Assembly (NCBI GenBank): GCA_001803045.1 | Contig: MHAR01000095.1 | Span: 1-52,086, forward strand | Direction of reading: 5' to 3' | Length of the DNA: 52,086 bases | Source of the DNA: Ignavibacteria bacterium RIFOXYB12_FULL_35_14 | Lineage (GTDB): Bacteria; Bacteroidota; Ignavibacteria; Ignavibacteriales; Ignavibacteriaceae | Notes under the pieces: model-generated | What the model saw: only the letters and a program-made list of their open reading frames with translations | Database searches by the model: none | What the model was told of the DNA's origin: nothing | Shown: positions 44,173 through 46,553 of the stretch, piece by piece | How positions within the stretch are numbered: position 1 is the stretch's first letter | How the letters are laid out: the number at the start of each line of letters is the position of its first letter | Program-made: the position numbers and the translations under genes

Positions 44173-44952
44173 TTAAACCTTTTCCTTAATTTGTTCACTA
44201 ACTTTTCCGAATCTTCTCTCTCTTTTTTGAAAACTTTTTATTGCTTTATAAAGATCATTCCTACGGAAGTCCGGCCACAGAACATCAGAAATATAAAATT
44301 CCGAATAAGCAATTTGCCAAAGTAAAAAATTACTAACTCTGAATTCACCGCTTGTTCTAATTACCAAATCGGGGTCCGGTATATATTTAGTCATGAGATG
44401 ATCTGATAAAAGGGATTCATCTATATCTTCCGGTCTAATATTTCTGTGCTCTACTTCATTAGCTATATATTTTACTGCTGCCAATATTTCAACTCTACCG
44501 CTATAACTTAAAGCTAAGTTGAGAACCATTTTCTTATTGTTTTTAGTTTTTTCAAATGCATCATTAAGTTCTTTTTGAACTTCTCTCGGTAGTAAGTCAA
44601 TATCACCTATCATGGTAATCTTAATATCATTCTGGTTTAGTTCATCTGTCTCATCTCTCAAGCTTTTAAGTAAAAGACGCATTAGCATTGAAACCTCATC
44701 CTTTGGTCTTCTCCAATTTTCGGTTGAAAAAGTATATAATGTAAGATATCGTACACCTAACTGAGAGCATGCTTTAACAATATCCCTAACCGATTCAACA
44801 CCACGTTTATGACCAGCAGCACGTGGTAACCCCCTTTTTTTTGCCCATCTTCCGTTTCCATCCATTATTATTGCAATATGTGATGGAATTTCACCGGATT
44901 TTTTTAATTCTGCCTGAGTGCGCTCATCTGACGAGCTGCGAGAGCTTGTCAA
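44173..44952 (-). CDS. uppS: Isoprenyl transferase (undecaprenyl diphosphate synthase)
   Basis: A 259-residue enzyme making the C55 lipid carrier for wall and LPS synthesis. The catalytic Asp is D31 in IAIIMDGNGRWAKKRG. TLYTFSTENWRRP, and the C-terminal RTSGEFRVSNFLLWQIAYSE complete the family signature. It opens the long envelope operon, with bamA directly after it. The 190-bp gap upstream to the nuclease-fold gene holds no gene; the operon promoter should lie there. Confidence 0.95.
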   Translation of the reverse strand: MTSSRSSSDERTQAELKKSGEIPSHIAIIMDGNGRWAKKRGLPRAAGHKRGVESVRDIVKACSQLGVRYLTLYTFSTENWRRPKDEVSMLMRLLLKSLRDETDELNQNDIKITMIGDIDLLPREVQKELNDAFEKTKNNKKMVLNLALSYSGRVEILAAVKYIANEVEHRNIRPEDIDESLLSDHLMTKYIPDPDLVIRTSGEFRVSNFLLWQIAYSEFYISDVLWPDFRRNDLYKAIKSFQKRERRFGKVSEQIKEKV

Positions 44953-45142: not shown

Positions 45143-45577
45143 TTATGAAAAAAGCGGCTGGAATCGTTCTGCAGTTCTTTTTTTTGAAATAGCTTGACGT
45201 TCAGTAATTTGAAATAGCTTAATGTTTTTTCGAATATCTTCTTCAAACTGATCGATAAGTAATTTTACTTCTTTGAAGTTTTCTTCTTTTACTCCGATAA
45301 ATAGCATTACCGGATAATTGCCATTTCGAGTATGTCTTGTTGCCAAGTGATTTATTTTATTCAATAACAAAGATTGATTATTCAGATCATCATTTGTAAT
45401 TGTTAAGCCAATAGCATACTTATTTTTTTGTCGGGCAACAACATCAACCTCAAAACCTCCAACCGAAGTTGGTTCGGGAAGATAGGTTCCAAATTTTCTG
45501 CTAAGTGTTAAATAACCTTTTCGCCAAAATTGTTCTACTAGAAGGTCAACGTTTTTTCGCCTTAATAATTCAGTCAT
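45143..45577 (-). CDS. PD-(D/E)XK-fold-like protein in the lexA operon
   Basis: About 144 residues from ATG 45577, which has GAGG six bases upstream; two ATGs further up (45589, 45592) are less well placed. The segment GGFEVDVVARQKNKYAIGLTI has the strand-turn-strand form of a restriction-endonuclease-like core with Asp in EVDVV. The second strand reads AIGLT where an E-x-K would be expected, so nuclease activity is doubtful. The rest is helical, with HLATRHTRN. It may bind nucleic acid. It is third in the operon after lexA and the WYL-like gene. The fold is a by-eye assignment. Confidence 0.55.
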   Translation of the reverse strand: MTELLRRKNVDLLVEQFWRKGYLTLSRKFGTYLPEPTSVGGFEVDVVARQKNKYAIGLTITNDDLNNQSLLLNKINHLATRHTRNGNYPVMLFIGVKEENFKEVKLLIDQFEEDIRKNIKLFQITERQAISKKRTAERFQPLFS

Positions 45578-45601
45578 ATTATACCTCATCATTTTAATTT
45601 A

Positions 45602-45841
45602 TTATGAAATCATATTTATTCTTGGTGAAAACCGTCTATTGCTGAATACTTTAATATTTGCTATTAAACCATATTCAAATTTTTTAATTTCGGAGGAGTT
45701 AGTAACTCTGCCATAGATTACCTTTTTACCATGTTTGTCTCTTGTTATGTAATAGGGTTCAAGCACCACCTCATCAAGTCCATATAAAAATTTAATTTGG
45801 TTCCTCTTGCTTATTGCTTCTGAGAATATTTGTGTCTTCAT
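45602..45841 (-). CDS. Mini WYL-like domain protein
   Basis: About 79 residues from ATG 45841; a TTG at 45856 overlapping the lexA stop would add five. The sequence ISKRNQIKFLYGLDEVVLEPYYI, then GKKVIYGRV, and KKFEYGLIANIKVF fits the core of a WYL domain. These domains bind nucleic acid or nucleotide ligands and often sit in damage- or phage-defence regulators. Here the domain stands alone, without a helix-turn-helix. Its position directly after lexA suggests a DNA-damage role; this is inference. Confidence 0.6.
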   Translation of the reverse strand: MKTQIFSEAISKRNQIKFLYGLDEVVLEPYYITRDKHGKKVIYGRVTNSSEIKKFEYGLIANIKVFSNRRFSPRINMIS

Positions 45842-45852
45842 AGTTTTTACTT

Positions 45853-46500
45853 TCAATTTAATAATCTAATTACACCTGAAACTTTTCCGAGTATGGAAAA
45901 ATCAGATTTACTATCAATACGAATTGGGGAATAATTTTTATTTTGTGGAATTAAGCTTACCTTATTTACTTTATTCTCGTATATTTTAACAGTTACTTCA
46001 TCGCCAACCATTGCAACAATAATTTCACCGTTAAGCGCTTCTTTTCTTGATGATACGATAACAAAATCTCCATCAAAAATGCCGGCATCAATCATACTAT
46101 CACCTCGAACTTTTAAAGCAAAATGTTCTCCGGATTTTTTTAGAAAAGAAGGATCGATTACCAAGCTTCCTTCTATATTTTCAATTGCGAGAATAGGAGT
46201 TCCGGCGGCTACTCGTCCCACGATTGGAATCTTTGTGAAGATATCTTCCGAAGCGATTACTTTCACGGCTGTATTATCGAACTCATGTCTCAGATAAGAA
46301 ATTCCTCGACTGGCGTTACTCTCCACAGCGATGTAACCTTTCTTTACTAATGCATCTAAATGCCGTTTAACTCCAAAGGTGGACGATATTTCAAACCTCT
46401 TTCCAATTTCTCTGAGTGTTGGTGGGTAACCATTCTCATTGCGAAATTGCTCGATGAAGTTTAAAATGTCTTTTTGGCGATCTGTAAGTGTGTTTTTCAT
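45853..46500 (-). CDS. lexA: SOS repressor LexA
   Basis: About 215 residues from ATG 46500. An N-terminal winged helix (ENGYPPTLREIGKRFEISS) binds DNA. The linker holds the cleavage site A99-G100 (RVAAGTP), and the S24 peptidase domain has the catalytic S135 (VRGDSM) and K172 (EVTVKI). It represses SOS genes and self-cleaves on RecA filaments. An operator-like site overlaps its own promoter (46505-46553), so it is probably autoregulated together with the two downstream genes. Confidence 0.95.
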   Translation of the reverse strand: MKNTLTDRQKDILNFIEQFRNENGYPPTLREIGKRFEISSTFGVKRHLDALVKKGYIAVESNASRGISYLRHEFDNTAVKVIASEDIFTKIPIVGRVAAGTPILAIENIEGSLVIDPSFLKKSGEHFALKVRGDSMIDAGIFDGDFVIVSSRKEALNGEIIVAMVGDEVTVKIYENKVNKVSLIPQNKNYSPIRIDSKSDFSILGKVSGVIRLLN

Positions 46501-46504
46501 ATAA

Positions 46505-46553
46505 GTGTTCAATTGTTCACTGGAAATATAGTGAACATAAGTACACTTGTCAA
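46505..46553 (-). promoter_or_regulatory. lexA promoter with LexA-box-like operators
   Basis: On the minus strand, TTGACA (46548-46553) and TATATT (46525-46530) are spaced by exactly 17 bp. The spacer contains GTGTACTTATGTTCAC, that is GTAC-N4-GTTC, close to the GAAC-N4-GTTC LexA box of Gram-positive type. TGTTCACT (46514-46521) and AGTGAACA (46530-46537) form a further inverted repeat. Bound LexA would block polymerase. Confidence 0.75.

Follow-up and report, generated by a model that had tools for sequence, protein, structure and literature searches.

Introduction

Does a lexA gene that is followed head to tail by two small open reading frames form a genuine operon, and what would its two small products do? 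The question is raised by a stretch of 52,086 nucleotides from Ignavibacteria bacterium RIFOXYB12_FULL_35_14, analyzed here at its full length and referred to as the window, in which lexA (lexA1 in the following) precedes one gene whose product was read as a lone WYL-like domain (wyl) and another whose product was read as a protein of nuclease fold (nuc). Both WYL domains and nuclease folds that have lost catalysis are familiar mainly as components of larger proteins. A description of the trio or of an ignavibacterial LexA regulon was not found in titles and abstract openings of the open-licence papers searched. In our view, the locus is fairly described as a new LexA operon that extends across the order and encodes two orphan proteins, for which the folds are reasonably settled and any function is putative.

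A conserved gene trio behind lexA1

All three genes are located on the minus strand. lexA1 (positions 45853–46500, ATG start at 46500, TTG start of the open reading frame at 46512) encodes 215 amino acids with the Pfam domains LexA_DNA_bind and S24 peptidase, followed by wyl (45602–45841, ATG start at 45841) with 79 and nuc (45143–45577, ATG start at 45577) with 144 amino acids, and the sizes named in the original prediction, a 79-residue WYL-like and a 144-residue nuclease-fold protein, match open reading frames found in the window. In the open reading frame reading, wyl would start from a TTG at 45856 with a 4-base overlap with lexA, and nuc from its first ATG at 45592. The conserved next gene uppS (44173–44952, minus strand) was treated as a neighbor outside the module count; together with bamA, it makes up the neighbors of the trio within the window.

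Conservation was analyzed in a set of 41 genomes, comprising the window's own genome and 40 relatives. wyl has a match in 40 and nuc in 39 of them, with the lexA-wyl pair being present in 40 genomes and the full trio in 39. In all 39 relatives' loci fetched, lexA lies directly upstream of wyl, and nuc is found behind wyl in 38. A single ten-residue pattern of the nuc family, scanned against 84,980 species genomes, yielded 92 stretches, 84 of which encode a relative; 80 of these were kept as named loci (the other four were unseen), and 78 of the 80 harbor a contiguous trio. Because the trio is conserved across relatives, a chance origin of its reading frames is excluded, and the proposed linkage of the two small genes to lexA, with head-to-tail order preserved in 39 of the 41 genomes and at 78 of the 80 named loci, is a real observation. 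The record titles of the named loci give ignavibacterial names, Melioribacter and Stygiobacter among them, or read just “Bacteroidetes bacterium” or “bacterium”; L190 and L196, both with the trio, belong to MAGs titled Melioribacter roseus. In a sample of 296 genomes of the phylum, nuc was identified in 26, every one in the order Ignavibacteriales, and the wyl profile matched the same 26 genomes and two more, where the matches are HTH-WYL-WCX regulators. Absence of nuc outside the order refers to the one ten-residue pattern in the named collection and to the 296-genome sample, whereas wyl was sought in genome samples only. In Ignavibacteriales, which are environmental bacteria, lexA is almost always followed by wyl and then by nuc.

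Spacers in the 78 trio loci, with start codons picked by script, are typically ~12 bp long at both junctions, ranging from −13 to +22 bp between lexA and wyl and from −4 to +87 bp between wyl and nuc. uppS adjoins nuc at a distance of 100–695 bp in 66 of 75 evaluable named loci, given an adjacency limit of 700 bp that is just exceeded by one of the misses (L172), and phoA is found on the other side of the trio in 15 of 71 loci. The neighborhood towards uppS is hence conserved too, less than the trio itself.

Three exceptions loosen the trio. Genome G011 (81% complete) contains lexA and wyl and no nuc anywhere, with a phosphate-acetyltransferase-like sequence (our own reading of the translation) after wyl; lexA, wyl and nuc were all not found in G025; and at locus L186 (5992–6381), nuc stands alone beside uppS without lexA or wyl. 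Neither a LexA DNA-binding domain nor wyl was detected in G025 or in G317, the genome holding L186, for which completeness is not given. At L155 the trio is interrupted by a contig end, with wyl located on another contig of that genome.

Among the closest pairs (dS < ~0.7), dN/dS amounts to 0–0.1 for wyl and to 0.02–0.11 for nuc, one nuc pair being at 0.28. Medians over all pairs with dS 0.1–1.2 are higher (0.34 for wyl, 0.49 for nuc), which we attribute to saturation in short genes. Mirror-tree correlations within the trio (r 0.58–0.71, 65 taxa) are no higher than those between the trio and uppS (0.57–0.75) and therefore reflect shared descent; partial correlations given uppS amount to 0.32–0.48.

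Predicted LexA1 boxes in the operon promoter

LexA1 reaches 221.5 bits against the LexA equivalog model TIGR00498 (cut-off 110.95), and its cleavage site A99-G100 as well as S135 and K172 are invariant in 79 of 79 aligned LexA1 sequences. With Ala-Gly cleavage site and Ser-Lys dyad kept, LexA1 is, as judged from these residues, intact. Upstream of the gene, a predicted promoter of the form TTGACA-17-TATATT (46525–46553, minus strand) agrees with the consensus in 11 of 12 positions. A predicted LexA1 box, GTGTACTTATGTTCAC (46531–46546, minus strand), falls between the −35 and −10 hexamers, and a second predicted box, GTGAACAATTGAACAC (46505–46520, minus strand), follows 26 bp from the first, just before the start codon. 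This layout recurs upstream in relatives: 97 distinct upstream regions display a TTGACA-like and a TATATT-like hexamer with a palindrome in between and a second palindrome 26 bp further on, near the start codon. The strict form GTG-N2-C-N4-G-N2-CAC is present in at least one copy in 79 of these 97 distinct lexA1 promoters and in none of the remaining 18, compared with a chance expectation of 0.01 per 10.5 kb, calculated for one locus. LexA control of the trio, as originally suggested, gains support from these boxes, which place lexA1-wyl-nuc under the putative control of the product of its own first gene.

Structure of the wyl product

The AlphaFold model of wyl (mean pLDDT 90) displays a WYL barrel with a short tail, the 79 amino acids leaving no HTH and no WCX. 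Foldseek ranks 1–23 are WYL regulators (PafBC, BrxR, DriD, CapW) with a probability of 1.00, the best E-value being 4.5e-3 and none falling below 0.001, and ranks 1–14 in VIA are WYL entries with Z 9.4–11.8, followed by Hfq at 8.8 and below. The best structural match is DriD (Z 11.8, rmsd 1.5, 73 aligned residues), with PafBC at Z 11.0 (rmsd 2.1, 76 aligned); both of them combine HTH and further C-terminal domains and act as transcription regulators, whereas wyl is predicted to be the barrel alone. The wyl family profile additionally gave a colinear match to the WYL domains of two HTH-WYL-WCX regulators. In Pfam searches, WYL (PF13280) was not listed at E ≤ 5 for the window protein, which leaves the cut-off unreached, and 15 of 40 wyl members match it at E ≤ 1 (best E 0.0016). 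Model confidence, both structural rankings and the profile matches agree with the lone WYL domain proposed from the sequence, so that a WYL barrel fold is reasonably settled at the level of models, and more firmly than the fold of nuc.

The protein is strongly basic (pI 10.0 in the window, 9.26–10.33 in the family). In PafB, R211 and R214 are given as ssDNA ligand arginines in the accessible part of PMC11804915. In our own alignment, these residues align with wyl positions E56 (63 of 79 sequences) and K/R59 (71 of 79; L in the window).

Fold and sequence conservation of the nuc product

The AlphaFold model of nuc (mean pLDDT 86) has the element order of an alpha-beta-beta-beta-alpha-beta core, and structure prediction of the two proteins singly rejects neither proposed fold. 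Foldseek hits (best E 5.3e-3) include unrelated proteins, and VIA reports a best Z of 8.7 with five chains at Z ≥ 8, a level that is common, as VIA warns, for models without a clear match. We accept a PD-(D/E)xK fold because most of the 50 VIA rows listed are, as we take them to be from titles and recall, PD-(D/E)xK nucleases or inactive relatives thereof (RPB5, FANCM-FAAP24). The fold is, as modeled, reasonably settled with moderate scores, weaker than those of wyl; the window protein itself does not reach the curated Pfam cut-off for its fold.

On strand 3, A-I-G replaces the E-x-K motif, with A55 in 76 and G57 in 78 of 80 rows, and neither an acidic residue nor lysine occurs at positions 54–58 and 60 in any of the 80, strand positions being placed by topology and our own reading. 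Strand 2 retains its Asp (D45 in 79 rows, replaced by E in one). A [DE]xK triplet within residues 50–66 is found in 14 of the 80 rows; among the 12 such rows listed, it falls into the helix that follows strand 3 in 11 and into the turn preceding this strand in the remaining one (L162). A restriction-enzyme-like core without the E-x-K lysine, as the original prediction had it, is consistent with both the fold matches of moderate score and the A-I-G on strand 3. D11, R27 and Y32 are each present in 80 of 80 rows, and the most conserved stretch, R27-x-x-G-x-Y-L-P-x-P36, is unlike any nuclease motif known to us. nuc is basic as well (pI 9.7 in the window, family range 8.71–10.11).

Further searches gave little beyond these folds. 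Sequence searches of solved structures with the wyl and nuc profiles gave 0, 1, 1 and 2 matches at a threshold of E 10, none of them better than weak, and NCBIfam and PHROGs scans of the nuc family yielded scattered weak matches. No nuc match at E ≤ 0.001 was obtained by Foldseek against viral models (BFVD), nor a confirmed relative of nuc by a scan of viral contigs.

The low-confidence C-terminus of nuc (window positions 45146–45163) ends in a [LI]F[SA] tail in 37 of 81 proteins. Sliding-clamp motifs are of the QxxLF type, and the tail bears a faint likeness to them; with the glutamine present in only 7 proteins, a clamp-binding motif was set aside.

LexA1 boxes outside the operon and a second LexA

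A first operator scan of the window's own genome that tolerated two mismatches gave 48 sites compared with 37 in the control, near background (20 regions inspected). The stricter box AGTGNNCANNNGNNCACT, more stringent than GTG-N2-C-N4-G-N2-CAC, was searched in all 41 whole genomes and yielded 57 forward and 55 reverse matches, against 3 and 6 for the reversed control. Outside lexA1 promoters, it marks 31 loci, all of which were examined. At 18 of them, distributed over 18 genomes, the box lies no more than 106 bp from a gene encoding a C-terminal DnaE polymerase half (two of these genes, at L275 and L280, are incomplete in the data), and at another two, Y-family polymerase genes start 16 and 37 bp away. 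That DnaE C-half genes and genes for Y-family polymerases carry this box, too, supports the DNA-damage context originally suggested for the trio. A full polymerase gene was not recognised at the other 11 loci, one of which (L291, G024) contains a short DnaE-C-like start; several of these loci look like chance matches.

Two single loci deserve mention. In G039, a genome without LexA2 (see below) and without the DnaE N-half, a UmuC-like polymerase gene is preceded at a distance of 16 bp by a strict LexA1 box (L277, 1265–2539). In G019, two boxes 26 bp apart reproduce the promoter layout of lexA1 (L274, 2522–2565), upstream of a target gene that was not recognised.

recA was considered as a further target and rejected: a LexA1 box was found neither in the 28 recA upstream regions that could be read, to which G025, itself devoid of LexA, contributes one, nor at any of the 29 recA loci checked.

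In the window's own genome, the DnaE C-half comprises 560 amino acids (L232, 3454–5136; C39) with finger and HHH domains, in addition to an OB-like stretch that narrowly misses the cut-off, and the matching N-half carries PHP and polymerase domains. Of the 41 genomes, 26 encode an N-half in a frame of 530–638 amino acids that is distinct from the full-length DnaE; in G004 and G006 it occurs as fragments. The palm motif PD[IV]DxDF, itself part of the selection of N-half frames, was found in a frame of >400 amino acids at 24 of the 26 N-half loci, and no such frame was obtained at L313 and L320. Splits of the same kind (N-half PHP and palm, C-half fingers onward) were also seen at L270, L282, L311 and other loci. 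Among the 26 N-half genomes, 18 have a strict box at the C-half. A LexA1 box within 300 bp upstream of the N-half was detected at only one of 24 (L299), where the two halves are divergent and the box is common to both. In G034 the N-half follows a dinB gene starting 61 bp from a box and may thus be controlled too.

The accessible part of PMC3919608 lists one Ignavibacteria genome as having a DnaE2 in addition to DnaE1, states that fragmented sequences were rejoined where intact relatives existed and contains no mention of a natural DnaE split outside cyanobacteria. As far as this source extends, a second DnaE in Ignavibacteria is on record, and an earlier description of the split was not found.

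A second LexA (LexA2, 35–41% identical, at least 90 bits) is encoded in 27 of 41 genomes. The palindrome CCATAC-N4-GTATGG is located upstream of lexA2 in seven of seven loci inspected (L202, 4071–4694, and L206–L211), so the LexA2 operator, as predicted from these sites, is different from that of LexA1. dinB, DUF72-like and methyltransferase-like genes, named partly from our own reading of the sequence, lie near some lexA2 loci. Eight of the 41 genomes (G013, G015, G017, G024, G027, G033, G039, G040) harbor the trio and neither the DnaE N-half nor LexA2. The trio therefore cannot serve the split polymerase alone, and a role as helper of split DnaE only was rejected. Three of these eight (G027, G033, G040) have strict boxes nowhere in the genome but in the lexA1 promoter, and thus wyl and nuc appear to be the steadiest output of LexA1, as far as the strict-box pattern goes.

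Relation to known SOS systems

Small stand-alone WYL-superfamily proteins under LexA control, as predicted for wyl from its boxes, have a parallel in YqjX/YolD of Bacillus. As described in the accessible parts of the sources, YolD is LexA-controlled and tied to translesion polymerases (PMC6511836, PMC4012209), and a role as WYL-superfamily partner of SOS polymerases has been proposed (PMC6511836). YolD genes lie mostly beside a UmuC-like gene, whereas wyl belongs to a lexA operon, and a YolD model was not among the 15 Pfam families matched at E ≤ 1 by 40 wyl members.

For nuc, the parallel is MmcB of Caulobacter, which combines SOS control (for nuc, suggested by the boxes) with a PD-(D/E)xK fold. 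The Foldseek matches of nuc in BFVD include proteins named MmcB-like at rank 5 (E 7.7e-3) and at rank 8 (E 1.6e-2), the rank-8 match having the highest TMq (0.55) among the 50 matches listed, and PDB entry 3dnx, which we take to be an MmcB homologue, aligns with nuc over 98 residues (Z 7.4, rmsd 2.9). Pfam presumably holds an MmcB model; none was among the 16 families matched at E ≤ 1 by 39 nuc members. To our knowledge, Caulobacter mmcB is not part of a lexA operon. MmcB is an SOS-regulated endonuclease hypothesised to act with translesion polymerases, as stated in the accessible part of PMC9578287, and unlike MmcB, nuc has no E-x-K. By analogy, wyl and nuc could work like YolD and MmcB while belonging to neither family by sequence, an idea we favor tentatively and hold at somewhat below an even chance.

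Cassettes of the lexA-imuA-imuB-dnaE2 type likewise connect LexA to a DnaE-family polymerase, here in the form of a LexA1 box in front of the DnaE C-half, but the trio operon includes neither imuA nor imuB, and the polymerase consists of two halves whose genes lie outside the operon. Geobacter, Pseudomonas putida and Xanthomonas also possess two LexA proteins that use separate operators, with Geobacter recA being bound by neither LexA, according to the accessible parts of PMC6511836 and PMC9578287, in which no report of a wyl-nuc pair was found.

Discussion

Going beyond the computed operon, boxes, folds, missing catalytic motif and common box, we infer RecA-dependent induction, nucleic-acid binding, a contact between wyl and nuc and an action at the polymerase. 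Our leading reading, favored without being given even odds, is that wyl and nuc act as a pair of SOS-induced accessory factors in translesion synthesis or in the tolerance of gaps, a function that is inferred throughout. Upon damage, activated RecA would cause LexA1 to cleave itself, which would free the two boxes over the operon promoter, and this autoregulated SOS operon would then re-make LexA1 along with two small basic proteins. The wyl barrel might bind single-stranded nucleic acid or dock on a polymerase, as proposed for YolD; nuc, as a catalytically dead PD-(D/E)xK fold, might take the functional place of MmcB by binding to DNA that is damaged or contains gaps; and both would assist translesion synthesis together with Y-family polymerases or with the split DnaE that bears the same box. 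We prefer damage tolerance because the operator common to polymerase genes, the YolD precedent and the MmcB precedent point the same way, and the absence of wyl from both genomes without a LexA DNA-binding domain (G025, G317) is in agreement with it. Against it, the operon contains no polymerase gene, the trio persists in eight of 41 genomes without N-half and LexA2, nuc is absent once and alone once, 11 of 31 extra box loci have no recognised full polymerase, and recA is without a box. Moreover, both window proteins stay below the curated Pfam cut-offs for their folds, neither family matches a YolD or MmcB model at E ≤ 1, one of the PafBC ssDNA arginines aligns with E56 (63 of 79, own alignment), and the fold scores of nuc are moderate.

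An unlikely alternative is that both proteins are feedback modulators of the SOS switch, with wyl sensing ssDNA and tuning LexA1 cleavage, LexA1 repression or the RecA filament, and nuc serving as its DNA-bound partner. Elsewhere, the SOS switch or the RecA filament is modulated by DinI, RecX and PsiB. This reading stays alive because wyl is tied to lexA1 more closely than nuc: wyl follows lexA1 in 40 of 40 genomes with LexA1 and is absent where LexA is absent, and in the three genomes whose strict boxes are confined to the lexA1 promoter, the two proteins would be LexA1's constant output. Yet the box elsewhere marks polymerases and not recA, and nuc survives without LexA in G317.

An extension of the translesion reading is bolder and unlikely to hold in full. 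LexA1-wyl-nuc would make up the invariable core of a second SOS circuit that is specific to this order and distinct from LexA2 with its ATAC-N4-GTAT-type operator. The output of this circuit would be a new mutasome built on a split DnaE, which consists of a catalytic N-half mostly made without a LexA1 box and a LexA1-gated finger C-half. Its assembly at lesions would fall to a lone WYL barrel and a dead PD-(D/E)xK scaffold in place of ImuA, ImuB or UmuD. Two minimal proteins fixed behind lexA across an order, apparently LexA1's most constant targets, make the trio a compact, testable SOS output, and they draw attention to a polymerase for which production of one half may act as the switch of its assembly.

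That one or both proteins act as a damage checkpoint and stop division or envelope growth is improbable in our estimate. lexA neighbors are often division inhibitors such as SulA and YneA, the conserved uppS-bamA neighborhood would fit, with uppS adjoining nuc in most loci, and L186 keeps nuc beside uppS even without lexA. Both folds are, however, of nucleic-acid-binding types and both proteins very basic, and the gap of at least 100 bp to uppS is unlike the tight spacing of lexA, wyl and nuc.

It is still more doubtful that nuc functions as a nuclease whose active site has been rearranged (D11, R27, Y32, D45) and which makes gaps for repair synthesis, as an MmcB-like endonuclease might; invariance of the first three residues and the near-invariant D45, replaced once by E, would suit such a site, but the lack of any acidic residue or lysine at strand-3 positions 54–58 and 60 and the preserved A-I-G argue for a dead core.

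A phage-defence module, for which WYL-domain transcription factors as regulators of defence systems (accessible parts of PMC9122588 and PMC9122601) and weak PADLOC matches of wyl (AbiEii 0.01, WYL 0.032) could be cited, is very improbable and was rejected on the PADLOC and viral-contig scans: PADLOC gave weak matches only for wyl and LexA1 and none to nuc at E ≤ 1, viral contigs contain no confirmed nuc relative, wyl has no HTH, the genes next to the trio are not defence genes but, in the window, uppS and bamA, with uppS adjoining nuc in 66 of 75 loci, and the trio occurs in nearly all sampled members of one order and co-varies with uppS as vertically inherited genes do. From the suggestion of a small, SOS-controlled DNA-damage or defence module, the defence half is thus dropped, whereas its damage half is supported by the box that the trio has in common with polymerase genes.
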